Below, one piece after another: positions 7,455 through 64,000 of a stretch of 64,000 nt of DNA. Position numbers and translations under genes: made by a program. The stretch is from Tolypothrix sp. PCC 7910. GTDB lineage: Bacteria > Cyanobacteriota > Cyanobacteriia > Cyanobacteriales > Nostocaceae. Location of the stretch: positions 7,131,501 through 7,195,500 of the forward strand of contig NZ_CP050440.1 in assembly GCF_011769525.1 (NCBI RefSeq), given 5' to 3'. The stretch's first letter is position 1. Every line of letters begins with the position of its first letter. The notes below the pieces were generated by a model, which was not told the origin of the DNA, ran no database searches, and worked only from the letters and a program-made list of their open reading frames with translations.

Positions 7455-8430
7455 GGGTCTTCTCCTTTTGATTTAGCTGAGTTTCCCAGATAAAAAGAAA
7501 CATGAAGCAATTCAAAATTTGCTCATTCAACAAACCCCTGATGAGAGGCTGTGCCAACGAGGTGGGGAACTCTTAAGGTAGGCAGGGAGGAGGCAGGGAG
7601 CAGGGGGAAAAAGAAAAATATTGTTTGGCAGTCCCTTGAGTACCTGTTATCCAAATTGTAGATTGAAAATCTTTAACATCAGGCTGTTTATGGATTTTCA
7701 AACAATGCGGGCTATACCAATTTGGGATTACCTGTTAAGAGTTCGCTGTGAAAATGAAAAACTAATTTGTGGATAGCTATCCTGGCGGTTGGCTGTATGC
7801 AAGTTAAATGTGGAGGTGTCTAAAGCGGTAGCAACTCCCACAAACCTTGGAAACAAAATTCCCTTGCTTTTTGCCTCCCCTATTTAGGTTTTATGTTTTA
7901 TTGAGTTGAATTACTTCTGTTAAAGATACTATTTACTGTAGTCTTGTGTATCTAGATTTGTATCAATTCTTCACAAGTTTTGGCATGATGATTAAAAGTC
8001 AAAACTTGTTGCAATTTGATATGAAAATGAAAAAAATCTTATTATTGCAAGCGTACAAAAGGATGATACGACTTTAACAGTACTTACGCAACTGGAACAG
8101 TTTTCCTCTGGCATAAGAGTCAAGAGTCAAGGGTCAAAAATTTATGTTTTTTGAACTATTGACATCTGACACTGGACAAACCTAAACGAAAAAGAATATG
8201 ACACTTGCGTAAGCCCTATTTAGTAAGCCCAGAGAAATAATATTTTTTGTGTGCTGCAAGTTTAATAGTATTTAAACTTTGTGCAACTTCCATCATGCAA
8301 ATGTTGGGTTCAGTGTAGCGCTAACCAAACTATTTGTTGAGTTGGAAAATACACCCTAGAGGGGGTCTCAAGCCTAAAATTTTCAGCAAATAAACTGCGA
8401 TGAAGCGTTTGCCAACTATATTAATTACAA
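7455..8430. other. Intergenic region between gvpA terminator and pntA; no gene seen
   Basis: This AT-rich stretch of almost 1 kb lies upstream of pntA. I see no convincing coding sequence on either strand. It contains the MITE-like segment 8083-8213 and a purine-rich tract (7577-7616). Confidence 0.6.
8083..8213. repeat. MITE-like segment ending in CTTACGCAA inverted repeats
   Basis: CTTACGCAA at 8083-8091 is inverted as TTGCGTAAG at 8205-8213. Short GAGTCAA repeats lie inside. The end sequence resembles that of the element at 9360-9482, which suggests a family of small non-autonomous elements in this genome. Confidence 0.5.
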
Positions 8431-13718: not shown

Positions 13719-15857
13719 CTAACTGAGCACTCTTTTCTGCCGTTCTAGCTGTAAAGCTGCTTTGACTCTTTCAAATTCTGTCTCTAACTGATAAAGTCGC
13801 TCTGGCAGATGGCTGATTTCGGAAAGAGCGATCGCTTCTATTTCTCGACAAAGTTCTGTGAGATTCCTAGCTCCTAAATAGGCGCTACTAGATTTCCAGC
13901 TATGGGCTAGACGGTGTATAGTTGGGGCATCTCCTTGGGTAACAGCTTCTCGAATTTGCTCCAGTATATGGGGGGAATCTTCTAAATAACAGTCAATAAT
14001 TTCTGCTACAAATGTGTCATCATCTCCAGCCATCTCACAGATTTTTTGAATAGCTTGAGTATTAATGGCTGGTAAATCTGCTACTGCAACAAAAGAACGA
14101 TTTGTTGAGGGTTCCTTGACTTCATGGGAGTGGCGATCGCTTCTGCTGGGGGGGATAAAACCACCATTAGTAGAAACTATCGGCACACATCGGCTTAAGG
14201 CTTGAGCTAGTATGTCAATGCGGATAGGTTTGGTGATGTAGTCATCCATTCCTGCTGTTAAACATTCCTCGCGATCGCCTTGCAGGGCGCGGGCTGTTAC
14301 GGCAATAATTCGCGGGCGTAAATCTACTGGATACTTTTGACAGATGAGCTTTGTGGCTTCTAATCCGTCCATTTCTGGCATTTGCACATCCATTAAGATT
14401 ACGTCATAAGACAAGTGCTGGATAATTTCTAAAACTTCTTTGCCATTACTGACAACATCGGCTCTATATCCTAGTTGTTTGAGCATCAATAAAGCTAGCT
14501 TTTGATTGACTGCATGATCTTCCGCCAGCAAAATTCTCAAGGGGAAATGTTCTGACATTTCAGAACCGAGGGAAATGAGATGAGATGGCTGGGTATTTGT
14601 TTGGCTAGTAGGTTGCACATGAGTTTTTCCGGTAGGTACAGGATAACTAGCCGGGGCGAGGATAGTGAAATAAAAAGTAGATCCCTCTCCCAGGCGAGTA
14701 TCTACCCACATTTTGCCGCCCATCAATTCGCTCAATTGGCGGCTGATCGCTAATCCTAAACCTGTGCCTCCATAACAGCGTGTAGTGGAAGAATCAATCT
14801 GACTAAAAGATACAAACAATCGATTCAGTTTATCTGCTGGTACGCCTACCCCTGTATCCTGAACAGAGAACTGGATCTCATACATATCCTGGGGTGCCTT
14901 TTCCCGCTTAACTGCACCGGATTGATTAGCCCCATTACCAGATGCAGTTGCGATATGGGCTGTGACTGCAATTTTAATACTGCCATTGGGAGTAAATTTA
15001 ATGGCATTACTCAGTAAATTCACTAAAATCTGACGCAGACGAGTTACATCTCCCACCATATTTGTGGGTACATCTGCTGCTACATGAAAGCTAATTTCTA
15101 ATTTTTTTGCTATGGCATCGTTAGCTAGCAATGCGATTGATTCTTTGATACAGTTTACTAAATCAAATGATTCTGTTTCTAGTTCTAATTTGCCAGACTC
15201 AATCTTAGAAAAATCTAAAATATTATTAATTAACGATAGTAATATTTCACCACTAGAACGAATTGTCTCCACAGCATCTTGTTGCTCTGGAGTCAGCTTT
15301 GTATCTAGTAATAATCCTGTCATACCAATCACCGCATTCATCGGTGTGCGGATTTCATGGCTCATATTTGCTAAAAAATCGCTCTTAGCTTGGGTAGCTA
15401 CTTCTGCCGCTACTTTTGCTTCTTCCAATCGTTGATTCTGTTGAATTAGCAGTTGCTGCTGTTGGCGAATTAGTAATTGATTTTTAATTCTTGCTAGTAC
15501 TTCTAACTCTTTAAATGGTTTAGTAATATAGTCTTGCGCTCCCAACTCAAAAGCTTTGACTTTATCCTTAAGATCATCTAGAGCGCTAATAAATATAATT
15601 GGAATATTACGTGTTTTCTCTACCAGCTTTAATTGCTGGCAAACTTCATAGCCGTTCATTTCCGGCATATTAACGTCAAGTAAAATTAAATCTGGTACCT
15701 CTCGTTGGGCAGCTTGCAAAGCCATACGCCCACTGAGCGATTTGCGAAGCACATAACCCTCTGACTCTAGCATTTTTGATAATAAACGTAGATTGTCAGG
15801 GTTGTCATCTACGAGTAAAATATTTGTTTGCGATGCTGATTTCAGTAAGGTATCCAT
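13719..15857 (-). CDS. Hybrid histidine kinase REC-HisKA-HATPase-REC-HPt
   Basis: From ATG 15857 ([20 protein letters not shown]) the protein has 712 residues. It has a first receiver (about 10-125, Asp in [16 protein letters not shown]), a coiled linker, HisKA ([14 protein letters not shown], about 170) and an HATPase ([11 protein letters not shown], about 380). A second receiver follows ([16 protein letters not shown], about 490), then a C-terminal HPt domain with [16 protein letters not shown] (about 645). No membrane or sensory domain is present, so its input probably comes through the first receiver. It lies directly upstream of the phytochrome kinase on the same strand, 161 bases apart, and is a natural partner in a phosphorelay. 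The open frame begins 18 codons earlier, but the receiver starts normally from 15857. Confidence 0.92.
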
Positions 15858-47775: not shown

Positions 47776-50367
47776 ATGACAGCTTTTGATTCTGAATTTC
47801 AGCCAACGGAATCCAATCATCCAACTGCGCCTCACTCGGACACGCGACTGGTAGACCGCAGCAAGTTGAGCAAGATGTATCAGCATTATGTAGAAATGAA
47901 GGATAAGTATCCTCATGCGCTGCTGCTGTATCGGGTAGGGGATTTCTTTGAAACTTTTTTCCAAGATGCTGTTACTGTATCTCGCGAACTAGAACTAGTT
48001 TTAACTAGCAAACACGGTGGTGAAGTTGGACGGGTGGCGATGACTGGTGTACCCCACCATGCTTGGGAACGCTACACTACCCAGCTGGTAGAGAAAGGCT
48101 ACGCTGTGGTGATTTGTGATCAAGTAGAAGATGCTTCGGAAGCTGTGGGTTTGGTACGGCGTGAGGTGACACGCATCCTTACCCCTGGGACGTTGCTGGA
48201 AGAAGGAATGTTAAAAGCAAGTCGCAATAATTACCTCGCTGCTGTGGTAATTGCGGGTAATCATTGGGGTTTAGCCTATGCAGATATATCAACTGGGGAA
48301 TTTGTCACAACACAAGGAAGTGATTTAGAACACCTCACTCAAGAATTGATGCGTTTACAGCCTTCCGAGGTGCTTTTTCCTACCAATGCTCCAGATTTAG
48401 GTAGCATATTGCGTCCGGGAGAAACTTCGCCCCATCTGCCGCAATGTTTGCCGCCAGCATTTTGTTATAGTTTGCGATCGCAAGTACCATTTTCTGCGGG
48501 AGAAGCTAGAAGTAGATTATTGCAGAAATTCAAAGTGCGATCGCTCGAAGGTCTCGGTTGCGAACACTTGCCCTTAGCTGTGCGGGCGGCTGGCGGTCTT
48601 TTAGAATATTTGGAAGATACGCAAAAAGAAAACTCGGTTCCGCTGCAGTTATTACGCACCTATACGGTTACTGATTATCTCATTGTTGACCATCAAACCA
48701 GGCGTAACTTAGAAATTACCCAAACGGTTCGTGATGGGACTTTTCACGGTTCTCTGTTGTGGGCGCTAGATAGAACTAACACCGCAATGGGCGGGCGGGC
48801 TTTGCGGCGGTGGTTACTGCAACCACTCATCGATATTAAAGGCATTCAAGCCAGGCAAGATACCATTCAAGAATTAGTCGAAAATACAGCATTACGTCAA
48901 GATTTGCGGCAGTTACTCCGGCAAATTTATGACTTGGAACGGTTAACGGGTAGGGCTGGTTCGGGGACTGCAAATGCTAAAGATTTAGTCGCTTTGGCAG
49001 ATTCCCTCTCTCGCTTACCAGAATTATCAGAGTTAGTCAGTGAAGCTTATTCACCCTTTTTAAGGGCTTTGCAGAAAGTACCCGCAAAATTAGAAGAGTT
49101 GGCACAAAAATTACATGCTCATATTGTCGAGTCACCACCCATACATATTAAAGAAGGTGGTTTGATTCGCTCTGGTGTAAATAATTTATTGGATGAGAGC
49201 AAAGCCACTGTAGAAGCAGATCAGCAGTGGATTGCTAATTTAGAAGTTGATGAAAGGGCTAGAACAGGCATCCCAACTTTAAAGGTAGGATTTAATAAAA
49301 CCTTTGGTTACTACATCAGTATTTCTCGTACAAAATCTGACCAAGTTCCCAGTAATTACATCCGCAAACAAACGCTAACCAATGAGGAACGTTACATCAC
49401 ACCCGAATTAAAAGAACGGGAAGCCCGAATTCTTTCCGCCCGTGATGATTTAAATCAGTTGGAATATGAGATTTTTGTCGCCTTGCGGGAAGAAGTGGGA
49501 GAACAAGCGGAGGTAATTCGCAATCTGTCGCGCGCTGTGGCGGCGGTAGATGTATTGTGTGGTTTAGCAGAGTTGGCGGTAAATCAAGGCTATTGTCGCC
49601 CGCAAATGGTTCCTGGGCGAGAAATTCAAATTGTCGATGGGCGACATCCGGTAGTGGAACAGTCGATACCTTCGGGTTTCTTTGTCCCCAACTCCACACA
49701 ATTAGGTCATCAGTCAGCTACAGATGACAAAGGACAAATGACAAATGACAACCCAGATTTAATTATTCTGACTGGGCCGAATGCTAGCGGTAAGAGTTGT
49801 TATTTGCGTCAGGTAGGGTTAATTCAGTTAATGGCGCAAACAGGGAGTTTTGTCCCAGCGAGATTTGCCAAGTTGGGAGTTTGCGATCGCATTTTTACCC
49901 GTGTGGGTGCAGTGGATGATTTAGCTACAGGTCAATCTACCTTTATGGTAGAGATGAACGAAACCGCCAATATTCTCAATCATGCCACATTGCGATCGCT
50001 CGTCCTTTTAGATGAAATTGGTCGGGGAACTGCAACTTTTGATGGGTTATCTATAGCTTGGGCGGTAGCTGAGTATTTAGCAACAGATATCAAAGCCAGA
50101 ACAATTTTTGCTACCCATTACCACGAGTTAAACGAACTTGCGGGAATGTTAGCAAATGTGGCTAATTATCAAGTAACAGTCAAAGAATTACCCGACCAAA
50201 TTATCTTTTTACACCAAGTCCAACCAGGAGGTGCTGATAAATCTTACGGTATTGAAGCGGGAAGACTGGCGGGTTTACCAGCTGTGGTGATTCAACGAGC
50301 CAAACAAGTCATGGGGCAAATCGAAAAGCACAGTAAAATTGCGATGGGTTTACAAAATCTTGATTAG
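47776..50367 (+). CDS. mutS: DNA mismatch repair ATPase MutS
   Basis: The 863-residue MutS has the mismatch-binding motif [14 protein letters not shown] (Phe-x-Glu, about 55-68) and connector, lever and clamp domains. The ATPase has Walker [15 protein letters not shown] (about 665-680), [10 protein letters not shown] and Walker [17 protein letters not shown] tandem repeat insert lies in frame before the ATPase (49723-49750). The last codons (846-851, MGQIEK) form the protospacer of the adjacent CAST homing guide, and the transposon end begins four bases after the TAG stop. The full protein is therefore retained. It initiates mismatch repair. Confidence 0.97.
49723..49750 (+). repeat. GACAAAT-type tandem repeat inserted in frame in mutS
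   Basis: ATGACAAAGGACAAATGACA and the following bases are units of the same heptanucleotide repeat seen between genes elsewhere. They encode DDKGQMTND in the loop just ahead of the ATPase ([14 protein letters not shown]). This is an intergenic repeat type that has invaded coding sequence. Confidence 0.75.
50308..50327 (+). other. Attachment protospacer of the CAST in mutS (PAM GTC + 17 bases)
   Basis: PAM GTC is at 50308-50310 and the protospacer ATGGGGCAAATCGAAAA at 50311-50327. It matches the homing spacer (50704 down to 50688) at positions 1-11, 13, 14, 16 and 17. The two mismatches, at 12 and 15, are third codon positions and silent (ATC/ATT Ile, GAA/GAG Glu). From the PAM to the transposon end is 61 bases, within the 60-66 known for V-K systems. 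Confidence 0.85.
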
Positions 50368-50371
50368 AAAT
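50367..50371. other. Predicted 5-base target duplication, left copy
   Basis: GAAAT directly precedes TGTACA. V-K transposons duplicate 5 bases; the right copy should follow the other transposon end, beyond the window. Its first base is the last base of the mutS stop codon. Confidence 0.5.
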
Positions 50372-50455
50372 TGTACATTAACTAATTATTTGTCACTGTT
50401 AACAGATTAATGTCATTTTTAACTAATTAATGTCTATATTAACAAATTTTATGTC
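50372..50455. repeat. CAST left end with four iterated TnsB-type sites
   Basis: After terminal TGTACA come four related sites: TTAACTAATTATTTGTC (50378-50394), TTAACAGATTAATGTC (50399-50414), TTAACTAATTAATGTC (50419-50434) and TTAACAAATTTTATGTC (50439-50455). They are spaced 20-21 bases apart. The ATTAATGTC core and the TGTACA tip agree with what I recall of the left end of the Scytonema CAST. Confidence 0.9.
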
Positions 50456-50687
50456 TTCAAATTGCGTTATACTATTTCTCTAAAATCTGACGACACATTA
50501 ATCTCCGCGTCTCCTTCTTTCCGCGTTACCGCGTCCCGATCTGTTGCTTCCATTTGGAGGATTGGTATTAGTTAACTATTAATAAAATAGTATTATTAAA
50601 CTCTTCAGCTTGATGTGTTATGTCATGTATAAACCTTGGCGCACTATAACACAGCTTTTAAAAAGCATGTTGGGTTTAACTTTTCTA
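50456..50687. other. CAST end region without genes
   Basis: The 232 bases between the TnsB sites and the homing spacer hold no coding sequence. CTGACGACACATTAATC (about 50488-50504) may be a further degenerate TnsB site. Confidence 0.5.
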
Positions 50688-50741
50688 TTCTCAATTTGCC
50701 CCATCTTTCAACCCACCCTACTCTGACATTGCTTTTGAAAC
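50688..50741 (-). CRISPR. Divergent terminal repeat with homing spacer (delocalised crRNA)
   Basis: The repeat at 50705-50741 is 37 bases like the array repeats and shares the first 10 and last 7 bases, but agrees at only 26 of 37 overall. Read on the minus strand it ends GGTGGGTTGAAAG, the tracrRNA-pairing end. The following spacer begins ATGGGGCAAATTGAGAA (50704-50688) and matches mutS 50311-50327 at 15 of 17 positions. It lies one 37-base spacer beyond the last array repeat. This is the layout of the delocalised guide that directs V-K elements to their chromosomal home site. Confidence 0.88.
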
Positions 50742-50778
50742 TCAAATTTAATTAATTGATTAATTGACTAACTCCACT

Positions 50779-51030
50779 CTTTAAACCCGCCTCAAGCTGT
50801 GAGAGGTATTGAAACATCTCATTTTTGGTGCAAATTCGACATACTGAATATACTTTCAACCCGCCTCAAGATGTGAGGGGTATTGAAACTTTTCAAATTC
50901 TGGGGAAACTTATTAATATCTCCTTTCAACCCGCCTCAAGCTGTGAGGGGTATTGAAACCCAAATCAGTAATCTACAAAGTTCGCTCATGATCCTTTCAA
51001 CCCGCCTCAAGCTGTGAGGGGTATTGAAAC
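50779..51030 (-). CRISPR. CRISPR array of the V-K CAST, four repeats
   Basis: There are four 37-base repeats at 50994-51030, 50923-50959, 50853-50889 and 50779-50815. The spacers are 34, 33 and 37 bases. On the minus strand repeats begin GTTTCAATACC and end GGCGGGTTGAAAG, the V-K type. Repeats decay away from the leader: the first two are identical, the third has one change, the fourth two. The array is transcribed leftward like tracrRNA and cas12k. Spacer targets cannot be identified here. Confidence 0.95.
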
Positions 51031-51230
51031 ACCAGCGCCTCAAATCCTTCACTAGCAACGACTCCAGAAGCATTTTTGTCAGATTTGTCAAAATCGCCTG
51101 CCACTTAACACTTGAAAAAGTAAATTAACTGACATAATAAAAGCTACAAGCCTTAATTAATAAGCGATTTGAAGTTTTGGCACAGACTCAGGGAAATTGA
51201 CCCCGCTTCGATTCGCCAAAAAATAATTAA
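51031..51230 (-). promoter_or_regulatory. Array leader / tracrRNA-array spacer region
   Basis: About 200 AT-rich bases lie between the tracrRNA 3' end and the first repeat, without coding sequence. The array may be transcribed from here or by read-through from the tracrRNA. Confidence 0.45.
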
Positions 51231-51452
51231 GGTGGGTTCCTCCTTGGTCGGAGGTGATTGGGTAGCCACCACTGCGGTAAACCCGCACCTCTATTACTGG
51301 GGGCGCACCTTATTCCTATCCCAAGGGATAGCAGCATCAAGGTGGGCAGCTACCAGGGTCAGAAAGCAAGACTGTCTTCCAACAGCCAAACTAACCCACA
51401 TTTACACAGTACAGAGGCTTTATACAAGCATGAACTGCGGCGCTATTTATTA
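51231..51452 (-). ncRNA. tracrRNA of Cas12k
   Basis: On the minus strand the sequence begins ATTAATAAATAGCGCCGCAG. It contains TTGCTTTCTGACCCTGGTAG and GGTGGCTACCCAATCACCTC, and ends with AACCCACC (51231-51238). Every block aligns, from memory, with the known Scytonema CAST tracrRNA. The final AACCCACC is the anti-repeat: it pairs perfectly with GGTGGGTT of the homing repeat and with one C-A mismatch with GGCGGGTT of the array repeats. The 5' end is inferred from the promoter and that homology. Open frames crossing this region are not genes. Confidence 0.92.
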
Positions 51453-51458
51453 ATACTT

Positions 51459-51489
51459 ATTCTATTTTCAAGGTTCGGTGTTTTGTCAA
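51459..51489 (-). promoter_or_regulatory. Putative tracrRNA promoter
   Basis: On the minus strand TTGACA (51484-51489) and TAGAAT (51459-51464) are 19 bases apart, followed after 6-7 bases by the expected tracrRNA 5' end. The -35 box abuts the cas12k stop codon. Confidence 0.55.
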
Positions 51490-53484: not shown

Positions 53485-53913
53485 ATGCAAGAAACTTTTT
53501 TTACGAGTAAACAAGCGGCTGAAATTACAGGCTGCACCCTGCGTCAACTTCAGTACTGGCGAGAAAAGGGTGTGGTTGTTCCTGTTATTGGTGAGACTGG
53601 AACAGGGCGTAGTATTTATTACTCAAAGCCGAATTTAATGGAACTGGCAGCAATGTTATATTTTTTGTCTATGGGTCTAAATTTTGATGTTGCTAGTACT
53701 ACGCTGAAAAGATTGAAAGACAAGGAACCAGAATTATTTGAATCTGGTAAAGGTACGCGGTGGATGCTCCGACGAGATAATCACAAGCGATCGCTCGAAC
53801 TTGTAGAGTTTGAATTAGAGCAAGCGATCGCCCAAATTAAAGCAGGCCAACCTGTAATTCCAGTATGGTTGGATACCATACACGAGCATATAGCCAGCAA
53901 GTTGAAAGATTAG
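53485..53913 (+). CDS. cvkR: CvkR, MerR-type repressor of the V-K CAST
   Basis: The 142-residue protein starts [20 protein letters not shown] and has a winged-helix MerR domain (about 1-75: [19 protein letters not shown]). The C-terminal helices [17 protein letters not shown] follow. It lacks the metal-binding Cys pattern of classical MerR. Its position, divergent from cas12k and over two palindromes, matches CvkR (the Cas V-K repressor described in Anabaena PCC 7120). It should repress cas12k and thereby limit transposition. Confidence 0.9.
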
Positions 53914-53999
53914 GCTTAAGCAACTTGGAAGTGTATTGGAGTGTCTGTCAACAAGATATATACTGGCAAAGCATTAGTGTCGCAACCTCAGCATCTACT

Positions 54000-55532
54000 A
54001 TGGGCAAACTCACGCTGCCACAACTAGAACGTCATCTTTTTTCTGCTGCTGATATTCTGCGCGGCAAGATGGACGCTTCAGACTTCAAAGAATATATCTT
54101 CGGGATGCTTTTTTTAAAACGCGCCTCAGATGTATTTGAACAGGAGTATGAGCAAATTTTGCAGCAGAATTTGCAAAAGGAACGGACACAAGAAGAGGCG
54201 AAAATGAGGGCAGAAAACCCCATCAGTTATAAAGAAACTTTTTTTGTGCCAGAAAAGGCGCGGTGGGCATATATACGTGATGAGCTACATAAAAATGTAG
54301 GGCAAGGGCTAAATGATGCTTTGAAAGAATTTGAGGAAAGCAACAAAGCGCTGGCTGGTGTATTAAAACATATTGATTTTAATCGTCAAGTTGGTAAGAA
54401 TCGTATTCCTGATGTTAAGTTGCGCGAACTAATTAAGCACTTCAGTCAACATCCTTTACGAAATGAGGATTTTGTATTTCCTGATTTGCTCGGTGCTGCT
54501 TACGAGTACCTGATTAAAGAATTTGCAGATTCTGCTGGGAAGAAAGGGGGTGAGTTTTATACCCCACGTGAAGTCGTGCAACTGATGATACGACTATTAA
54601 AACCCCAAGCCGGAATGTCAGTTTATGACCCCTGCTGTGGTTCAGGTGGAATGCTAATTCAGGCGAAACAGTATGTAGAAGAATGTGGTGGTGAATCGAA
54701 AAATTTATCTCTTAATGGACAAGATACTAATGGTGGGGTGTGGGCAATTTGTAAGATTAATATGCTTTTGCACGGTATTAGGGACGCAGATATTCATCAC
54801 GAAGATACCTTAGTTAATCCTTTACATATTGAAAATGGTCAACTTAAAAAATTTGACCGAGTGATTAGTAATCCACCTTTCTCCCTAGACTATAGCCTTG
54901 ATGGAATGCAATTTACTGATCGCTTCACACATGGTTACTGCCCTGTTAAGGGAAAGGCAGATTTGATGTTTGCCCAGCATATGTTAGCTGTTCTCAAAAC
55001 TGATGGGATGATGGCGACAGTAATGCCGCATGGGGTGCTATTTCGCGGTGGAGAAGAAAAGAAAATTCGGGATAGTTTTATTAAAAATGACCAATTAGAG
55101 GCGGTGATCGGCTTACCACCAAATTTGTTTTATGGTACAGGTATCCCCGCCTGTATTTTGGTGATGTGTCCACAAGGGGCGAAACCTGTAGAACGTCAAG
55201 GAAAGGTTTTGTTTATTAATGCTGATGCTGAATATTATGCAGGTCGCGCTCAAAATTATTTGCGTCCTGAGCATATCGAAAAGATTTGCTGGGTGTTTGA
55301 AAATTTTGTGGCTTTACCTGGATATTCGGCTGTAGTAACTAAGGAAAAATTGGCAGAGGAAGATTACAACTGTAATATCCGCCGCTATGCTGATAATGCG
55401 CCACCACCAGAACCACAAGATGTAAAAGCGCATTTATTTGGAGGAATACCCAAGGTTGAGGTCGAAGCGAAGCGCGAATTATTAGCAGCACATGGGTTTG
55501 ACTCAAGTAGGATTTTAGCGGAGAGGAATTAG
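54000..55532 (+). CDS. hsdM: Type I restriction-modification DNA methyltransferase
   Basis: From ATG 54000 ([20 protein letters not shown]) the protein has 510 residues. It has the HsdM N-terminal helical domain (about 5-150), [18 protein letters not shown] (about 182-200), the AdoMet motif [18 protein letters not shown] (about 205-223) and the catalytic NPPFSLDYS (about 290). It methylates adenine in the target set by HsdS. The open frame extends 45 codons upstream into cvkR, but that part has no HsdM character. The stop TAG overlaps the GTG start of the next gene. Confidence 0.95.
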
Positions 55533-56599
55533 TGGATTATTTGGATTTTATTTCTGCAATTAGCGAAAGAGGGCAGATTAAAAGTTTTATAGAATCTGAT
55601 GCTGGTGTTCAGCAGCAAGAAAGCAAACTTTATAGTATGTTTGCTGCATGGTGGCAAGTACACGCGCCTAGTTTGAGTGAGTTACCCAAAACTAAAAAGG
55701 TGATGGAACTCCGCGCTGAGTTTTTGAGTTCTTTTGTGGATAGTTTGCTACCTGTGGGTTTACTTGACCGCTTTAAAGTGGCGGCTGTGGTTGCTAGTTG
55801 GTGGGATGAAGTGAAGTATGAACTCAGAACTTTATCAGAATCGAACTTTGGCGGCTTAGTTGATAGTTGGGTGGATACAATTAAAGATGCTTTAGAGCAA
55901 GATGATGATGAGAAGAAAAAACAGGCGAAATTTGACCCTTTAAATCATAAATTAGTAGGGCGGTTGATGCCCAGCTATTTACAAGAAATTGCTGAGGCTG
56001 AGGCAAAAATTGCAGAATTAGAACAGCAAAAGCAAGCTGTTGAGCAGGGAGAGGAAGCTGAGGCGGATGCTGGTGAAGAAGGTGAAGAATCAGAAGCGGT
56101 GAATGTTGTTAAGGATTTAGAGACAAAACTGAAGCTGCTGAAAAATTTGATTAAAGAGCCGAAGAAGGAACTCAAGATTTTAAAGAAGTCGCCTTTATTG
56201 AATGCAGAGAAAATTGCTGAACTTGAGGTTTTTATTAAGTGTAATGAAGTAGAGATTGCTGAGATAGATGAGTATCTGGAACCCTATAAGGAAATTGTTA
56301 CGCAATTGAAGGAAGAAAAAGCCAAACTAAAGACGCTAAAGAATGAATTGGTGCAGCGTTTAGAAGCTGCGCGTGCTGCATTGACTGATGAAGATTGTCG
56401 AGATTTGGTGTTAGCAATTTTCAAAGATGGGTTAATTGCTGAATTGGAGCGATATGTTACCGCGCACCGTCAGCAGGTGATTGCTGCGGTAGAGAATTGG
56501 TGGGATAAGTATCAGGTAACGTTGCAGGATATTGAGGCCGAAAGGGATGCAGTAGCGAAGAAGTTGAATGAGTTTTTGCAGGGGTTGGGTTATGCGTGA
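55532..56599 (+). CDS. Coiled-coil partner of HsdM, likely detached HsdM C-terminal region
   Basis: The 355-residue protein has a GTG start overlapping the hsdM stop by one base, so translation is probably coupled. The first 130 residues (WWQVHAPSLSELPKTKKVMELRAEFL..., SWWDEVKYELRTLSES) resemble the helical tail that is fused to the methyltransferase in other HsdM proteins. The rest is a long, very acidic and basic coiled coil (about 140-320), and the C-terminal WWDKYQVTLQDIEAERDAVAKKLNEFLQGLG is helical. It probably bridges HsdM and HsdS or DNA. An unrelated accessory protein is possible. Confidence 0.75.
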   Translation: MDYLDFISAISERGQIKSFIESDAGVQQQESKLYSMFAAWWQVHAPSLSELPKTKKVMELRAEFLSSFVDSLLPVGLLDRFKVAAVVASWWDEVKYELRTLSESNFGGLVDSWVDTIKDALEQDDDEKKKQAKFDPLNHKLVGRLMPSYLQEIAEAEAKIAELEQQKQAVEQGEEAEADAGEEGEESEAVNVVKDLETKLKLLKNLIKEPKKELKILKKSPLLNAEKIAELEVFIKCNEVEIAEIDEYLEPYKEIVTQLKEEKAKLKTLKNELVQRLEAARAALTDEDCRDLVLAIFKDGLIAELERYVTAHRQQVIAAVENWWDKYQVTLQDIEAERDAVAKKLNEFLQGLGYA

Positions 56600-57929
56600 G
56601 GTTTTGGTTAAGAATGAGGAGTTTAAGGATTCACCTGTTGGGAAGATTCCGCAGGATTGGGAAGTAAAAACTTTAGGTGATTGTGCATTTATAACTAAGC
56701 TTGCTGGATTTGAATACACTAATTATTTTGACTACTCTCAACAAGGTGAAGTTATAGCTCTTCGAGTACTTAATATCCGAAATGGCGTACTTGATTTGTC
56801 AGATATTCAATCAATTCCTCGTAAAGTATCTAAGCAATTATCACGTTCATCACTTGGTAAGGGTGATTTAGTTATTTCTTACGTTGGCACGATTGGGGAG
56901 GTTGCTCTCATTGAAGAAGATGAACGATTTCATTTAGCTCCTAATGTTGCTAAAATATCACCTAATCCAGAAATTGTTAGATCTCGTTTTCTTCTCGCTC
57001 AAATTCTCAGCCAAGCTGCTCAAAAACGAATATTAGACCTTAGCACTTTAACTTCGCAACCTGCTCTTAGTATGAGTAGATTGCGCCAACTAATGATTGT
57101 ATTACCTCCAATTCCAGAACAGCGACGTATTGCTGAAATTTTGGATACTGTGGATGAAGCGATCGCACGCACATCTTCCCTGATTATAAAACTTAAACAA
57201 ACCAAAACCGGACTACTGCAAGACTTACTCACACGCGGGTTAGATGAACATGGCAAATTGAGAGATCCACAGGCGCATCCTGAACAGTTCAAAGACTCGC
57301 CACTGGGAAGAATTCCAAAGGAATGGGATGTTTCTGATGTGGAAATTCAGTTCGATATTACAGCAGGTTTCACTCTTGGAGAACATCGTCGTCCACGAAA
57401 CAATAAACGTAAGTATCTTAGAGTTGCAAATGTTCATCGTGATGAGATTGTACTAGATGATATTGCAGAACTTGAAGCTGAAGATCACGAATTAAGTAGT
57501 CGCTTGTTACAGAAAGATGATCTTTTGATAGTTGAAGGTCATGCTAATCCTGATGAAATCGGTCGCTGTGCTATTGTTCCTGCGGAAGCAGTAGGTTTAA
57601 CTTTCCAAAATCATTTGTTTAGACTGCGATGTAAATCCATGAATCCAAATTTTGCTTTGGCATGGCTAAATAGTGAGTGGGTTCGTGCTTATTGGCGGCG
57701 TTTGTGTGGTACTAGCTCTGGGCTAAACACAATTAACCGCACTATGTTAAATGCAATTTTTGTACCTATATCTACTCAAGACGAACAAAGAAGTATTGTT
57801 GCTATTATTGATACCTATAAAAGACGCATACGTACAGAAGAAGCCTACCTTAACAAGCTCAAACTCCAAAAACAGGGGCTAATGCAAGACTTATTAACTG
57901 GTAAAGTGCGAGTGAAGAGCATTAAATAA
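56592..57929 (+). CDS. hsdS: Type I restriction-modification specificity subunit
   Basis: From ATG 56592, which overlaps the previous gene by 8 bases, the product has 445 residues. It is made of two half-repeats, each starting with the same phrase: FKDSPVGKIPQDWEV (about 11-25) and FKDSPLGRIPKEWDV (about 232-246). Each continues with a target-recognition domain. The conserved spacer helices include PIPEQRRIAEILDTVDEAIARTS...KLKQTKTGLLQDLLT and, at the end, DEQRSIVAIIDTYKRRI...LKLQKQGLMQDLLTGKVRV. It sets the bipartite recognition sequence of the complex. Confidence 0.95.
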   Translation: MREVLVKNEEFKDSPVGKIPQDWEVKTLGDCAFITKLAGFEYTNYFDYSQQGEVIALRVLNIRNGVLDLSDIQSIPRKVSKQLSRSSLGKGDLVISYVGTIGEVALIEEDERFHLAPNVAKISPNPEIVRSRFLLAQILSQAAQKRILDLSTLTSQPALSMSRLRQLMIVLPPIPEQRRIAEILDTVDEAIARTSSLIIKLKQTKTGLLQDLLTRGLDEHGKLRDPQAHPEQFKDSPLGRIPKEWDVSDVEIQFDITAGFTLGEHRRPRNNKRKYLRVANVHRDEIVLDDIAELEAEDHELSSRLLQKDDLLIVEGHANPDEIGRCAIVPAEAVGLTFQNHLFRLRCKSMNPNFALAWLNSEWVRAYWRRLCGTSSGLNTINRTMLNAIFVPISTQDEQRSIVAIIDTYKRRIRTEEAYLNKLKLQKQGLMQDLLTGKVRVKSIK

Positions 57930-57974
57930 TCGTAATAATAAAGTATTTACCACTCTTAATCACCAAATTAATCC

Positions 57975-58598
57975 ATGCCTACGCCGATTTATCACATCAC
58001 CCACATTGATAACTTGCCATCAATTCTGGAATCAGGTGGATTGATTGCAAATAGTAGGCTAAAAAAGACTGATTATGTTGATATTGCTCATGGGCACATC
58101 CAAGATAGAAGACGCATAATCCGCGTTCCTTGTAGTGTTGGTGGATGTTTGCATGATTATATCCCTTTTTATTTTGCTCCCCGCTCTCCCATGCTCTATG
58201 CAATTTACAGAGGACAAGTACAAAAATATCAAGATGGGCAAAATAAAGTAATTTATTTAGTTTCTCAAGCAGAAATTATAAAAAATAATAAATTAGATTT
58301 TGCGTTTACTGATGGTCATGCTGCTGTGGTGGCTTTATCAGAATTTTACGATAACCTAGATGATTTATTTAAAATTGATTGGAACATAATGAAAGCAACT
58401 TATTGGGCAAACAATGAAGAAGATAATGATAGAACACGCCGTAGGCAAGCTGAGTTCTTAGTGCATCAATTCTGTGATTGGACACTGATTCAGGAAATTG
58501 GTGTGATAAATGGCACTATAGAACAAAAGGTTAGAAACATATTACAAAATTTTAATGTCCAAACTCCTGTTAAGATTAACTCTAGTTGGTACTACTAA
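57975..58598 (+). CDS. darT: DarT toxin, DNA ADP-ribosyltransferase
   Basis: The 207-residue protein has the DarT signature: PIYHITHIDNLPSILESGGL (about 4-23) for NAD binding, IPFYFAPRSPMLYAIY (about 62-77), and RRRQAEFLVHQF (about 152-163) containing the catalytic Glu. DarT modifies thymidine in single-stranded DNA and blocks replication; in phage defence it is released or activated on infection. It is followed by darG, its antitoxin, 65 bases downstream, and lies 45 bases after hsdS, so the pair sits inside the restriction operon. Confidence 0.93.
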   Translation: MPTPIYHITHIDNLPSILESGGLIANSRLKKTDYVDIAHGHIQDRRRIIRVPCSVGGCLHDYIPFYFAPRSPMLYAIYRGQVQKYQDGQNKVIYLVSQAEIIKNNKLDFAFTDGHAAVVALSEFYDNLDDLFKIDWNIMKATYWANNEEDNDRTRRRQAEFLVHQFCDWTLIQEIGVINGTIEQKVRNILQNFNVQTPVKINSSWYY

Positions 58599-58663
58599 AC
58601 ATTATTAAATAGTACAATACAAAGTTAGATAGTACATTTGTACGTCATAGGTGGCATTGGGAG

Positions 58664-59728
58664 ATGATTGAGTTTAAGCAAGGCAACCTATTAGAAGAAA
58701 ATGCCGAAGCCTTAGTAAACACCGTTAATTGTGTCGGTGTCATGGGTAAAGGTATTGCCTTGCAATTTAAGCAAGCTTATCCTGACAACTTCCGCCACTA
58801 TGAGAAAGCCTGTAAAGCTAGTGAAGTCCAGCCAGGGCGGATGTTTACCGTAGCAACAGGTAGTCTATTTCATCCTAGATACATAATTAACTTCCCCACT
58901 AAGCGTCACTGGAAAGGTAAGTCAAAAATAGAAGATATTAAAAGTGGACTGGTGGCTTTAGTTACAGAAGTGCAGAAATTAGGTATTACTTCAATTGCTA
59001 TTCCACCTTTAGGATGCGGAAATGGAGGTTTGGAATGGTTTGAAGTGAAGCTTTTGATAGAATCAGCCTTTGCTCAACTGCCGGATGTAAGGGTAATTAT
59101 CTTTGAACCGACAGGCGCACCAGCGGCAGAAAAAATGCCTGTTGCTACTGAAAAGCCAAAAATGACCCGCGCTCGTGCTTTGTTTATTCACTTGCTGGAA
59201 CTGTACGGAATTCCAGGTTATGAGTTAACTAAGTTAGAAATTCAAAAACTTGCCTATTTCCTGCAAGAAGCTGGAGAAACTTTAAAGCTGCCTTATAAAG
59301 AACATAAATATGGCCCCTATGCTAACGATCTCAATCATGCGTTGAAACGCCTCGAAGGGCATTTCATTCGCGGTTATGGTGACGGAACCAGCAAAGCCGA
59401 CAGTGCTGAAATTTATGTATTATCAGAAGGTAGAGAAGCAGCAGAAGCTTTTTTAGAAACAGAAATAGATGCCCAGGAGCGTTTAGAGCGAGTTGGCAAC
59501 CTCATATATGGCTTTGAAACACCTTACGGTATGGAACTGCTAGCCACAGTTCATTGGGTTGCAACCAAAGAACCTAACCCAGCACAAGATAGTGAGCAGG
59601 CGATCGCCCTGGTGCATCAATGGAGCGATCGTAAGCGCAAGCTATTTAAACCTGAACATATTCGCAAAGCTTGGCAGCGTTTATATGAGCAAAACTGGCT
59701 AAATCTTAAAGAGGAAATAACTTCTTGA
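58664..59728 (+). CDS. darG: DarG antitoxin, DNA ADP-ribosylglycohydrolase
   Basis: The 354-residue protein has an N-terminal macro domain (about 1-150: IEFKQGNLLEENAEALVNTVNC, GVMGKGIALQFK, SIAIPPLGCGNGGLEW). This removes ADP-ribose from DNA. The C-terminal domain (about 165-345, beginning RARALFIHLLELYG) neutralises DarT by direct binding. The KLEIQKLAYFLQEAG...YGPYAN segment recalls DUF4065/SocA-like antitoxin folds. Its end overlaps the convergent reverse-transcriptase gene by 23 bases. Confidence 0.93.
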   Translation: MIEFKQGNLLEENAEALVNTVNCVGVMGKGIALQFKQAYPDNFRHYEKACKASEVQPGRMFTVATGSLFHPRYIINFPTKRHWKGKSKIEDIKSGLVALVTEVQKLGITSIAIPPLGCGNGGLEWFEVKLLIESAFAQLPDVRVIIFEPTGAPAAEKMPVATEKPKMTRARALFIHLLELYGIPGYELTKLEIQKLAYFLQEAGETLKLPYKEHKYGPYANDLNHALKRLEGHFIRGYGDGTSKADSAEIYVLSEGREAAEAFLETEIDAQERLERVGNLIYGFETPYGMELLATVHWVATKEPNPAQDSEQAIALVHQWSDRKRKLFKPEHIRKAWQRLYEQNWLNLKEEITS

Positions 59729-61226
59729 ATATTCTCTCAAGAAAGTTCCATATAAAATTCCAACACAAAGTTTGCCTTACCTCTGTATTCTTTACAGGGT
59801 TACTGTCATTTATTGAACCTGAAGAGGAATTACATTTTTCACATGAACAGCTTTTTCGTTTATGAAGCCTGTAATATTCTTGCTCCAGAGTAATTAATCC
59901 TGCCTTTTTGAAGTCTGATTTATTCAGACGGAGTTGATACTGTTTGTAGAAGTGTTTGCTTACTTCTTTCCGAATCCATTTATCCAATTCACGTATTTGT
60001 TGGATGTCTGTAATAACCATAAAAAAGCCCATCCAACTTTTTACTCTTTCTCCTAGCACACCACCACATACATCACATATTTTCTCACCACGACCAGTTA
60101 CTTTTCTATTAATCACATATTTGATAAAAAAGCTAAATCTATGTTTTACATTTTTACCAGTTTTATAAGAAAGCTCTTTATTAATTTTTTCTGTGATTCT
60201 TTCCTGAAAACGTAAAATGTTTCTTGGTTTAATTTTGATATGCTCAAGATTGAATTGAAACCCAACAAACTCTAAACTATCTTTAGCTATATCAACAGAT
60301 TTTGTTTTATTTTTATCAATATGCAATTCTAGCTTTATCTCTTGTAGCTTTTGAGCAACTTCTTTATTTACTAAAGCAATTAATTCTTCTTGTTTTAAGA
60401 GTATGACAAAATCATCTGCATAACGAACGTATCTCAGAGGATATTTTTTCGCTAAATCATTGATAACCCAACAATCAAATTCATGTAGATATAAATTTGC
60501 TAGCATTCCCGAAAGTACACCACCTTGAGGAATACCCTGAGTTCTAATAATTCTTTGTTTATTTAGAATGGGCTTGCGACGATGAAAAAATCGGTATCCA
60601 TATATTTTGCCATGTTGATTTTTATGTGGAAGTCCACCAGTTTTGATAAACCGTTTCAATAATTTAGTAGCCGGAGTATCTTGACCAAGCTTTCTCTCTA
60701 TAATTTCAAAAAGATATTCGTGAGATAACCTATCAAAAAATTTTACTATATCCGCATCTAAGGCAAATATAAAACCTTGTTTGATATAACCATGAATCAA
60801 GCTTGCTGCATAGGGTGCAGACTTTCCCTTTCTATACGCACAAGAAACTTTATCCAGTATAGGTGTCGCTCGAAAATCTTTTTCTATCTCTGTATAAATA
60901 GCATCATACAAGACTTTTTGAACGATAACATCACGTATGCTAGCGATCGATAAAATTCGCTTTCCACCAGATGGCTTATCTTTTTCTATCTGTCGAAAAG
61001 TATAAAACTGATATGTACCTTTAAGTAATCTATTTGATAGCAGCTGACACCGTAAGTCAAGCTCCTTCTTGAAGGTTTGGTAAGAAATACCATCTACCCC
61101 CATCTGAACTTTTGGCTCACCTTGCTGCAAGAAATCCGTTTTTTGTCGTTCGTAAGCTTCAAAGGCAGCCTTTAGCTTCTCAGGCTGAAAGTACTCAGTG
61201 AGTAACTCGTCCAAGCCCTTGGACAT
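59706..61226 (-). CDS. Group-II-like reverse transcriptase, stand-alone
   Basis: From the internal ATG 61226 (MSKGLDELLTEYFQPEKLKA) the protein has 506 residues; the frame stays open to 61304, but that part overlaps a structured leader. The fingers and palm have MGVDGISYQTF (about 40), ALDADIVKFFDRLSH, the QG-type motif TQGIPQGGVLSGMLANLYLH, the catalytic RYADDFVILLK and LEFVGFQFN. The C-terminus has a maturase-like X domain (VKSWMGFFMVITDIQQIRELDKWIRKEV) and zinc-ribbon-like Cys pairs (CDVCGG; CSCEKC). No endonuclease domain is seen. darG follows directly, so there is no room for intron domains V-VI. It is probably a domesticated or defence reverse transcriptase. Confidence 0.85.
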   Translation of the reverse strand: MSKGLDELLTEYFQPEKLKAAFEAYERQKTDFLQQGEPKVQMGVDGISYQTFKKELDLRCQLLSNRLLKGTYQFYTFRQIEKDKPSGGKRILSIASIRDVIVQKVLYDAIYTEIEKDFRATPILDKVSCAYRKGKSAPYAASLIHGYIKQGFIFALDADIVKFFDRLSHEYLFEIIERKLGQDTPATKLLKRFIKTGGLPHKNQHGKIYGYRFFHRRKPILNKQRIIRTQGIPQGGVLSGMLANLYLHEFDCWVINDLAKKYPLRYVRYADDFVILLKQEELIALVNKEVAQKLQEIKLELHIDKNKTKSVDIAKDSLEFVGFQFNLEHIKIKPRNILRFQERITEKINKELSYKTGKNVKHRFSFFIKYVINRKVTGRGEKICDVCGGVLGERVKSWMGFFMVITDIQQIRELDKWIRKEVSKHFYKQYQLRLNKSDFKKAGLITLEQEYYRLHKRKSCSCEKCNSSSGSINDSNPVKNTEVRQTLCWNFIWNFLERIFKKLFPL

Positions 61227-61500
61227 ATTTTTATTTTGTAGTGATTTAATTACTTGGAAGTGCTTACTGCTAAGGCGGACAGAGAACGCTAGGCACTTCC
61301 TCAACCTGTCTCCTCTACTATGGTGTAGAGTATAACCATTACCTATTATTTCTAATAGGTATAAAGAAACTCCCTAGTAAGGTGGATCTTTGTTATGTCT
61401 TCCTACTGTGTAGTTTATCACAGATTGGAACAGCTACCCTCTTGGTTAAGACGCTTTTAGGCATCTTAAGGCAGGTTCTAAGACCTAACCAAGCATTATT
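61227..61500 (-). ncRNA. Structured leader of the reverse transcriptase gene, candidate RNA
   Basis: Several perfect inverted repeats lie in series upstream of the reverse transcriptase: 61256-61263/61293-61300 (GGAAGTGC), 61313-61318/61325-61330 (CTCTAC), and 61340-61347/61354-61361 (TACCTATT). There is also 61441-61448/61486-61493 (CTTGGTTA), which encloses AGGT/ACCT (61473-61476/61483-61486). The density of stems suggests an RNA that works with the enzyme, as in retrons and DRT systems. The boundaries are a guess. Confidence 0.45.
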
Positions 61501-61641: not shown

Positions 61642-64000
61642 ATGTCCCAACAAACTCCTGAGTATATTCACGTAGAAATGCCTACCATTCAGCAACTTAT
61701 AAGCATGGGTTGGCAGTATATAGAAGGCAGTTGGGACAATCCAGCAATTACTGAACGAGACAACTTTAAGCAAGTTCTACTGACACAACGCATCAAAGCT
61801 GCTATCAAACGCATCAACTTAGACGAAAACGGCAACCCTTGGCTAGATGATATCCAAGTTCAAACCGCAGTCAGTCAGTTAGAACGCCTGGGGGCAAATA
61901 GATTAATGGAAGCCAACCAAGCGGCTACGGAATTGCTACTTAAAGGCACTACAGTTTTAGGGCAAGACGGCAAACAGCACACGGTTCATTTTATTGAATT
62001 TGATCCCGAACATTGCGATCGCAACGATTTTCTCGCCATCAATCAATACAGAGTAGATCCGCCTTGGGCAACAGGTAATCGAGGATTTATCGTCCCAGAC
62101 ATCGTACTACTTGTTAACGGCATCCCTCTAGTAGTGATTGAATGCAAAAGCCCCAGGCTAGATAACCCGATAACCGAAGCAATTCAAGACTTATTAAAAT
62201 ACTCCAACCAACGGGGTAGCAGTCAACCAGAAGGCGCAGAAAAATTATTCCACTACAATCTGTTGATGATAGCAGCCTCTAGAGGACGGGCAGCAGCCGG
62301 AACCATCGGCGCAAATTATGAACATTATGTTGAGTGGAAAGATACCATTCCCAGTCCCCAAGCGGAAATTGCTACACAATTAGGCGTTGCGGAATTGAAT
62401 TTTCGCCAAACCCTCATCGCCGGGATGTTGAAACCAGCTAATCTGATCGACATCCTGCATAATTTCACCTTATTTAAAACTAGCGGCGGACGTACTATCA
62501 AAATAGTTCCCCGTTACCAGCAATATCGGGCAGTATATAAAGCATTGCAACGACTTCAACACAACCAGACTCGCGCCCAACATGGCACAGATGACCAACG
62601 CGGTGGGATTATCTGGCATACCCAAGGATCGGGTAAAAGCCTGACAATGGTTTACCTAATTCGGAAAATTCGCACCATCCGAGAATTACGCCGCTTTAAA
62701 ATTGTTGTGGTCACTGACCGTCGAGATTTAGAAAAACAACTTGCAGATACCGCCGTCCTCACTGGAGAACCATTACAAAAAGCGAAAACCGTTAAAAAGC
62801 TAGAACAATACTTGCAACAACCGGGTGCTGGCTTAGTCTTTGGAATGATTCAGAAATTTAAAGGCGGCAAAGATTCTGAAGAAGAAGCAGAAATAGAACT
62901 AATTCCGAAAAACCTCAATCCTTCCGAAAATATCTTAGTGCTAATTGACGAAGCACACCGTTCTCACGCCAAAACTCTCCACACCAATTTATTAGAAGCT
63001 TTACCTAACTGTGTCCGTATTGGCTTTACTGGTACACCCATTGTCAAAGCTGCCAAAAAAACCACCATACAAATCTTTGGCTCATTTATTGACGAATACA
63101 ATATTCGTAAATCCCAAGAAGATAAAGTCACTTTGCCCATTGTCTACGAAGGATTAGAAGCTAGAGGCACTGTAACCCAAGGTGATGACCTCGACCAACT
63201 TTTTGAAATTATCTTTACCCATAAAACCCCAGAAGAACGAGCGCAAATTAAAGCTAGATACGCGACTAAAACCCAAGTTGGCGAAGCACGGGAACTAATT
63301 AAAGCCAAAGCTAAAAGTATGTTGCGTCATTATATTGAGCGCATTTTAGCAGGAGGCTTTAAGGCGCAAGTAGTCGCCTCTACCCGTCTCGCTGCAGTCC
63401 GTTACCAAGAAGCATTTGTCGAAGCGCAACGAGAAATAGTACAGCAACTAGAACACCGCGCCCTCATTCTGCAAAGTCTTGATGCGGAGGCTTTAGAATC
63501 GCGTGATGCCGAAACTCGTTTTTTTGTTCAAGCACTCCCACATCTAGAAACCATCCGCAAGCTAGAATTTGCTACAGTCATCTCTGGTGATAAAGGTGAT
63601 GATCATAGCTGGAAAAAGTGGACAGATAAAAGTCAACAAGAAATTAATATTGAGAAATTTAAAAAGTTTTTAGACCAAGATAGTCTAGCGATTTTAATCG
63701 TAAAAAATATGCTGTTAACGGGTTTTGATGCACCGTTAGAACAAGTTTTATACTTAGACAGGTCACTTAAAGAATACGAATTGCTGCAAGCGATCGCTCG
63801 TGTTAACCGAGTGTATAATGATAAAAAAACAGAGGGCTTAGTAGTCGATTATTACGGTGTTGATATCGCTGCTGCTCTTTCAGTTTACGAGAATGTTGAT
63901 ACAGAATCAGCCTGGTTTGATATTCGTGCAGAATTACCCAAATTGCGCGAGAGGCATCAGCGAGTTATTGCTCTATTCACTGAAAAAGGATACACAATTG
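61642..64000 (+). CDS. hsdR: Type I restriction endonuclease subunit (3' end outside window)
   Basis: The frame from ATG 61642 (MSQQTPEYIHVEMPTIQQLI) is open to the window end for 786 codons. It has the PD-(D/E)xK nuclease (PDIVLLVNGIPLVVIECKSP, about 150-170) and helicase motifs: Walker A HTQGSGKSLTM (about 330), LVLIDEAHRSHAK (about 435), RIGFTGTP and LLQAIARVNRVY (about 715). HsdR cuts unmodified DNA after ATP-driven translocation. A full protein usually has 1000 or more residues, so the helical C-terminal region is missing here. It is separated from hsdM/hsdS by darTG and the opposite-strand reverse transcriptase. Confidence 0.95.
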   Translation, partial: MSQQTPEYIHVEMPTIQQLISMGWQYIEGSWDNPAITERDNFKQVLLTQRIKAAIKRINLDENGNPWLDDIQVQTAVSQLERLGANRLMEANQAATELLLKGTTVLGQDGKQHTVHFIEFDPEHCDRNDFLAINQYRVDPPWATGNRGFIVPDIVLLVNGIPLVVIECKSPRLDNPITEAIQDLLKYSNQRGSSQPEGAEKLFHYNLLMIAASRGRAAAGTIGANYEHYVEWKDTIPSPQAEIATQLGVAELNFRQTLIAGMLKPANLIDILHNFTLFKTSGGRTIKIVPRYQQYRAVYKALQRLQHNQTRAQHGTDDQRGGIIWHTQGSGKSLTMVYLIRKIRTIRELRRFKIVVVTDRRDLEKQLADTAVLTGEPLQKAKTVKKLEQYLQQPGAGLVFGMIQKFKGGKDSEEEAEIELIPKNLNPSENILVLIDEAHRSHAKTLHTNLLEALPNCVRIGFTGTPIVKAAKKTTIQIFGSFIDEYNIRKSQEDKVTLPIVYEGLEARGTVTQGDDLDQLFEIIFTHKTPEERAQIKARYATKTQVGEARELIKAKAKSMLRHYIERILAGGFKAQVVASTRLAAVRYQEAFVEAQREIVQQLEHRALILQSLDAEALESRDAETRFFVQALPHLETIRKLEFATVISGDKGDDHSWKKWTDKSQQEINIEKFKKFLDQDSLAILIVKNMLLTGFDAPLEQVLYLDRSLKEYELLQAIARVNRVYNDKKTEGLVVDYYGVDIAAALSVYENVDTESAWFDIRAELPKLRERHQRVIALFTEKGYTI

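Follow-up and report, generated by a model that had tools for sequence, protein, structure and literature searches.

We analysed a 64-kb window of Tolypothrix sp. PCC 7910 (C1:7131501-7195500 of genome G000), which holds the left part of a type V-K CRISPR-associated transposon (CAST) inserted just behind mutS. The element carries a short homing guide whose 17-nt spacer (anchor) matches the last codons of that gene, and RNA-guided V-K homing to the mutS 3′ end very probably explains the insertion. At the sequence level, the case is made up of the element and its ends, the anchor, the protospacer-adjacent motif (PAM), the distance between PAM and insertion, an intact mutS, relatives without the element and recurrence in other genomes. 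The mechanism matches known V-K homing; the unusual part is the address.

A homing guide that matches the 3′ end of mutS

The features of the insertion junction and of the guide region are as follows.

47776..50367, plus strand: mutS, intact host gene serving as attachment site (863 aa; Pfam/NCBIfam MutS)
50308..50310, plus strand: PAM GTC (GTN type), Val codon 845 of mutS (sequence, script)
50311..50327, plus strand: anchor protospacer ATGGGGCAAATCGAAAA, mutS codons 846-851 (15/17 to the anchor spacer)
50372..50377, plus strand: TGTACA tip of the transposon left end, 61 nt from the PAM end and 4 nt from the mutS stop (sequence)
50378..50455, plus strand: four TnsB-like sites forming the left-end array (50378-50394, 50399-50414, 50419-50434, 50439-50455; consensus scan)
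50688..50704, minus strand: 17-nt anchor (homing) spacer ATGGGGCAAATTGAGAA (sequence match)
50705..50718, minus strand: truncated repeat R* of the homing guide, GGGTGGGTTGAAAG (sequence)
50779..51030, minus strand: CRISPR array of four 37-nt repeats and three spacers (sequence)
51031..51489, minus strand: presumed trans-activating CRISPR RNA (tracrRNA) region, structured (z -2.29), placed after cas12k as described in PMC9938897
51490..53448, minus strand: cas12k (NF038191, 956 bits against a cut-off of 150)

The mutS stop codon TAG occupies 50365-50367 and the TGTACA tip starts 4 bp downstream (50372). On the minus strand, R* GGGTGGGTTGAAAG (50718-50705) is followed directly by ATGGGGCAAATTGAGAA (50704-50688). 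Aligned to the mutS sequence GTC-ATGGGGCAAATCGAAAA, this spacer agrees at 15/17 positions; its mismatches, at positions 12 and 15, fall on third codon positions and are synonymous (Ile and Glu kept). The original prediction, made from the window alone, had proposed just this match to codons 846-851 beside GTC, and the match holds up in the complete 8.76-Mb genome, where the mutS site is the sole GTN-flanked match to the anchor at ≤2 mismatches. The other match with two mismatches is the spacer itself, and five more have three; the pattern written backward gave one match per strand at ≤3. We also compared 42,656 17-mers (every third position, both window strands) with the GTN-flanked sites of the 464-bp stretch that ends at the tip. 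Eleven matched without mismatch, each being its own position; one matched with two mismatches and was the anchor itself, and one with three was a chance match at 62224. No other 17-mer sampled from the window fits as well as the anchor.

From PAM end to tip we count 61 nt, the distance that had been predicted. The range of 60-66 nt with which it had been compared is a laboratory figure. Natural V-K elements have PAM-to-end distances of 46-82 nt, with one of 147 nt, according to PMC9938897, and both this spacing and a GTN PAM are found here. As in other V-K elements, R* and the 17-nt anchor lie between array and left end, and the anchor matches DNA beside the left end. ARAGORN detected no tRNA in the 64-kb window; the protospacer lies in mutS and not, as is usual for V-K elements, in a tRNA gene.

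The far end of the element

The window was joined to the stretches that follow it in order to reach the far end. TnsB-like sites in joined 50001-82000 were confined to 50378-50455 (+) and 78999-79227 (-), i.e. to inverted arrays (consensus scan). The right TGTACA tip ends at joined 79233 (C1:7210733), past the window edge, and the element between the two tips is 28,862 bp long. It encodes TnsB (541 aa), TnsC (279 aa) and TniQ (171 aa), for which Pfam gave Mu-transpos_C with HTH (rve just below the cut-off), TniB and TniQ, respectively (L003 7988-5005, minus strand). TnsA was not found among the 18 element open reading frames (ORFs) given to Pfam (8 + 10, a subset of the element's ORFs).

A second TniB/TnsC-like gene (267 aa; L003:4151-4954, minus strand; joined 68051-68854) directly follows tniQ and is a candidate extra or altered ATPase. 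The block between tnsB and the right end (L003:8252-14866, joined 72152-78766) contains a trypsin-like/iSTAND gene, AAA, a VWA-like match below cut-off and two FGE-sulfatase genes, and looks like conflict or defence cargo in an unusual place.

Relatives without the element

Reconstruction of the empty mutS locus in related strains had been proposed as a check, and the same-genus genomes G002-G005 do have mutS without the element. By eye, mutS of G002 and G003 is directly followed by sequence like the element's far flank (GGGCAT-type repeats, then GGTTAGGTAATTGG); blastn of this flank with low-complexity filtering aligned only 61 bp in G002 and nothing in G003. A block starting 106 bp after the last mutS sense codon in G004 and G005 corresponds to the sequence from 273 to about 940 bp past the element's far end, with 94% identity over 667 and 670 bp (blastn). 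No such far-flank alignment near mutS was detected by blastn in G001, G006 and G007 of the same genus.

Recurrence at mutS in other genera

The same arrangement recurs in other genera with guides that match the local mutS, in support of the predicted V-K CAST with a guide to the mutS 3′ end. The anchor of Anabaena subtropica FACHB-260 (locus L067, same sequence as genome G701), ATGGGGCAGATTGAGAA, matches its own mutS at 17/17 positions with a spacing of 58 nt. That of genome G198 (L195) is identical to the window's 17 nt and matches its own mutS at 17/17, with a spacing of 61 nt; this element has matches to Cas12k, a CvkR-like protein, TnsB, TnsC and TniQ. Each of the three intact cases has 57 nt between the PAM and the end of the mutS stop codon, so the insertion lands just past the gene.

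A pattern of R* plus mutS anchor was present in 3/388 genomes of the order (G000, G198 and G701; backward control 0). The first V-K left-end site was found a short distance past the mutS tail in 10/217 family genomes, which represent 4 genera (backward control 0). The original prediction had proposed a search for other V-K elements with mutS spacers or inserted behind mutS, and both were found. In the other seven of those ten genomes (excluding G000, G198 and G701), no anchor was detected in the sequence retrieved, which was short for two of them. Cas12k fragments followed mutS in G820 and G842, which are among the seven, and in G737, which is outside the ten. The anchorless left ends behind mutS look like decayed CASTs.

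One further genome (G844; L187, L178) combines a mutL-anchored guide with a left-end remnant after mutS. The G198 element carries a second, partial TniQ match and a TnsC 96% identical to the window's (L195:12497-12760 and 14983-15819). This identity compares with 78% for both TnsB and Cas12k, which points to mosaic exchange among the elements.

Homing targets of V-K elements

We assembled 137 Cas12k loci, comprising 74 from genome contigs, 60 picked among the better matches listed, the G198 locus and the two of this genome. The survey script allowed ≤3 mismatches in 17, required a GTN PAM and looked only after R*-like motifs; because the PAM was required, the survey cannot test it. An anchor match to an adjacent site was detected in 97/137 loci, 96 of them by the script. 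The remaining one, L067, was missed because its R* reads GGTTGGAAG, and was found in a separate comparison. After four duplicates, all tRNA, were dropped (identity of 250 nt around the anchor), 93 non-redundant anchors remained: 82 for tRNA genes (Ala, Val, Arg, Thr, Pro, Gly, Cys, Lys, Phe, His, Met, Asp and Leu), 3 for mutS, 2 for mutL and 6 for other targets.

The mutL anchors belong to Nostoc linckia z4 (L069) and Nostoc sp. NMS7 (L081), in which ATTGGTAAAAGTCATGG matches the last mutL codons at 16/17 and 17/17 positions, respectively, beside a GTA PAM. The L069 target protein is MutL (931 bits to NF000951), and the L081 target is taken as mutL because its C-terminus is nearly identical. 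R* plus mutL anchor was found in 7/217 family genomes of 2 genera, two of the seven being those of L069 and L081; the mutL target, with 0-1 mismatch, was in the short locus fetched for 5/7 and was not found there in 2/7. In mutS as in mutL, a valine codon read in frame (GTN) serves as the PAM, so that, judging from these two genes, a synonymous change could not destroy it.

The six other targets are those of L085, L129, L219, L222, L225 and L257. A common non-tRNA anchor occurs in three of these loci (L219, L222 and L225), and its target there is a terminator-like hairpin behind a candidate, perhaps RNA, gene; the L257 target is a similar hairpin by eye. The single tRNA detected in L222 is not at the target site. 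No clear gene was seen at the L085 target, and the ORF targeted in L129 had no NCBIfam match.

The Tolypothrix genome itself contains a second CAST (G000:C1 ~7847943-7873767), whose anchor GATAGAGCAACAGATTC matches tRNA-Arg(ccg) at 17/17 positions beside a GTG PAM, 65 nt from the tip. Its Cas12k is 87% identical to that of the window element, its R* is alike, and so, by eye, is its 142-aa MerR-type neighbour. It had been proposed that related elements at tRNA genes with other terminal spacers would speak against homing to mutS. Such an element does exist, and the claim is not refuted by it because its guide, too, matches its own site. The right end of this second CAST is one of two back-to-back V-K ends with one shared TGTACA (L017 ~7930-7990; G000:C1 ~7847930-7847990). 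A short V-K end-like sequence, possibly a relic, lies apart from both CASTs at G000:C1:2757416-2757451 (L018).

Origin and apparent exchange of the mutS guide cassette

From 141 genomes with a match we fetched 30 mutS loci, including that of the window and one false pick of the script. The mutS target equals the window spacer exactly in 8/30 loci and is within 2 mismatches of it in 27/30. The variant ATGGGGCAAATCGAAAA is present in 5/8 same-genus genomes, the window's included, and none of the eight equals the spacer; on this comparison of targets, the window guide was probably acquired in another genus.

In the Cas12k tree, where several of the branches concerned are weak, the mutS elements lie apart from one another: G198 (L195) falls among tRNA-Val and tRNA-Arg elements, L067 beside a tRNA-Arg element, and the window element beside the tRNA-Arg element from its own genome. 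An approximately unbiased (AU) test rejected a single clade for the three (p-AU 8e-5; 24 rows chosen around the three mutS elements, quick tree), and 3 changes are needed. Their guide regions are nevertheless alike. Among the three, 26-28/30 of the nucleotides ending with R* agree, versus 15-22/30 with 12 tRNA or mutL elements; identity in the 260 nt after the spacer is 0.62-0.74 versus 0.45-0.65 with others, a less clean separation. The mutS guide cassette thus appears to move between elements. One origin of the cassette followed by exchange, perhaps through recombination with relics at the same site, would be the simplest reading.

Proposed mechanism and alternative explanations

In the proposed mechanism, a short guide consisting of R* and the 17-nt anchor would pair with the tracrRNA and load Cas12k, which would bind the mutS protospacer beside the GTC PAM; TniQ, TnsC and TnsB would insert the element ~60 nt downstream. 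This distance reaches just past the stop codon, so that mutS would remain intact. Guide expression and each protein step are carried over from characterised V-K systems. The R* sequence GGTGGGTT is exactly complementary to AACCCACC at 51238-51231 in the presumed tracrRNA region and can pair with its RNA; no exact complement of GGCGGGTT of the array was found in this region. Of the 96 R* 9-mers in the survey, 55 could form 8 or 9 of 9 Watson-Crick pairs with the 420 nt that follow cas12k, versus 4/96 after one shuffle of the 420-nt stretch.

Several observations weigh against homing to mutS by this route. The guide has two mismatches in its present host. Between tnsB and the right end lie ~7.3 kb of cargo, so tnsB is not the first gene there, as it is in the usual V-K layout (PMC9938897). 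With TGTACA as the tips, the flanks share 8 bp, TTAGAAAT, against a norm of 5 bp for V-K target-site duplications given in PMC9527255. A second GAAAT had been anticipated at the other transposon end: that end was found, but TTAGAAAT follows the far tip, with GAAAT offset by 3 bp, and reading a 5-bp duplication as either TTAGA or GAAAT requires a 3-bp shift at one end. The G198 element likewise has no clean 5-bp duplication (right end placed by eye; regular-expression search without match). Finally, 40/137 Cas12k loci lack an anchor match; 13 of these have <1500 nt of contig left and the other 27 do not.

The mutS-like 17-mer might be a scrap of target captured by imprecise transposition, the insertion having another cause. 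The imperfect match in this host (15/17) would suit such a scrap. However, the match begins exactly after R* and ends after 17 nt, as described for anchor spacers in PMC9938897; survey anchors all lie after R* by construction of the search, and this positional point holds for the window. In addition, the L067 and G198 anchors match their own mutS at 17/17, and the window spacer, which equals the G198 anchor and 8/30 mutS loci and none of its own genus, was not copied from this host. We therefore consider a captured scrap highly improbable. A random or off-target V-K insertion, or one directed by another target selector, with a guide match by chance, is hardly credible. Much off-site V-K insertion has been reported in test systems (PMC11406308), but both the chance scan and the genome scan, as well as left ends at the same place in 10/217 genomes, argue against it, and of the 18 ORFs of the element submitted to Pfam only the 171-aa TniQ could be such a selector.

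Given RNA-guided homing to mutS, the choice of address might reflect gene function rather than a neutral safe harbour, if insertion altered mismatch repair to the element's profit. Both nameable protein-gene targets in the survey are indeed mismatch-repair genes, and R* plus mutL anchor occurs in 7/217 family genomes. On the other hand, mutS is left complete by the insertion, and both sites have a mundane trait, conserved last codons with an in-frame Val that gives a GTN PAM. Moreover, only two genes are involved, and six more non-tRNA targets have no gene name. We regard a choice for repair function as unlikely. More broadly, and tentatively, V-K homing cassettes (R* plus anchor) may be exchangeable, with some specialised in mutS or mutL owing either to a drift-proof Val-codon PAM and past-gene spacing or to a repair-gene benefit.

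Cargo and other features of the element

The remaining features between cas12k and the window edge are as follows.

53485..53913, plus strand: gene of a MerR-type regulator, divergent from cas12k and CvkR-like by position (PF13411)
53865..55532, plus strand: cargo, type I restriction-modification hsdM (PF02384, PF12161)
56568..57929, plus strand: cargo, type I specificity subunit hsdS (PF01420)
57975..58598, plus strand: cargo, darT (NF048013)
58664..59728, plus strand: cargo, darG (NF048014)
59706..61304, minus strand: reverse transcriptase gene, nearest group II intron type (PF00078; TIGR04416 185 bits, below the cut-off of 300)

The repressor CvkR of V-K CASTs is described in PMC9938897. 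Next to cas12k (window 53865-59728), type I restriction-modification and DarTG are carried as cargo, and the reverse transcriptase gene (59706-61304) sits between darG and an apparent hsdR (61642 to past the window end, by eye). The array repeats match their consensus at 35, 36, 37 and 37 of 37 positions. Blastn of the array region (50690-51070) against plasmid and phage collections gave no match in either, and Rfam at the gathering threshold gave none in the 64-kb window.

Implications

Our analysis indicates that V-K RNA-guided homing is not tied to tRNA genes and that the last codons of a protein gene can be used while the gene is spared. This widens the natural safe-harbour addresses seen for V-K elements. 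It also supplies natural guide-target pairs with synonymous mismatches and a record of possible guide swaps between elements, and how these elements change attachment site becomes a directly testable question. The sites after mutS and after mutL are candidate insertion sites for cyanobacterial engineering.

Comparison with known systems

A 2024 review describes V-K attachment (att) sites as "mostly" tRNA genes, and PMC11656645 mentions tRNA or glmS genes as neighbours of V-K and I-F homing sites. We did not find mutS or mutL as a V-K homing site in the literature searched; primary V-K homing surveys, which may list them, lie outside it. The word mutS is absent from the main text of PMC10293859 and PMC8649781, and mutL likewise from that of PMC10293859.

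Type I-F3 CASTs resemble the window element in having a guide reserved for a conserved att site on the chromosome. Some I-F3 att sites are protein genes. Four att sites are typically used by these transposons (PMC11406308). Unlike V-K elements, they rely on Cascade and TnsA-containing machinery, and their CRISPR part was co-opted independently.

With tRNA-homing V-K CASTs (ShCAST, AnCAST and relatives), the window element shares Cas12k, a MerR-type regulator gene and TnsB/TnsC/TniQ, as well as R* with a 17-nt anchor, a GTN PAM, the left end at the target and a spacing within 46-82 nt (PMC9938897). The new homing class proposed in the original prediction is not supported, since R*, the 17-nt guide, PAM and spacing are all ordinary for V-K. 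The window element differs from these CASTs in its protein-gene (mutS) anchor, an additional TnsC-like gene, the cargo that sets tnsB apart from the right end and an 8-bp shared flank.

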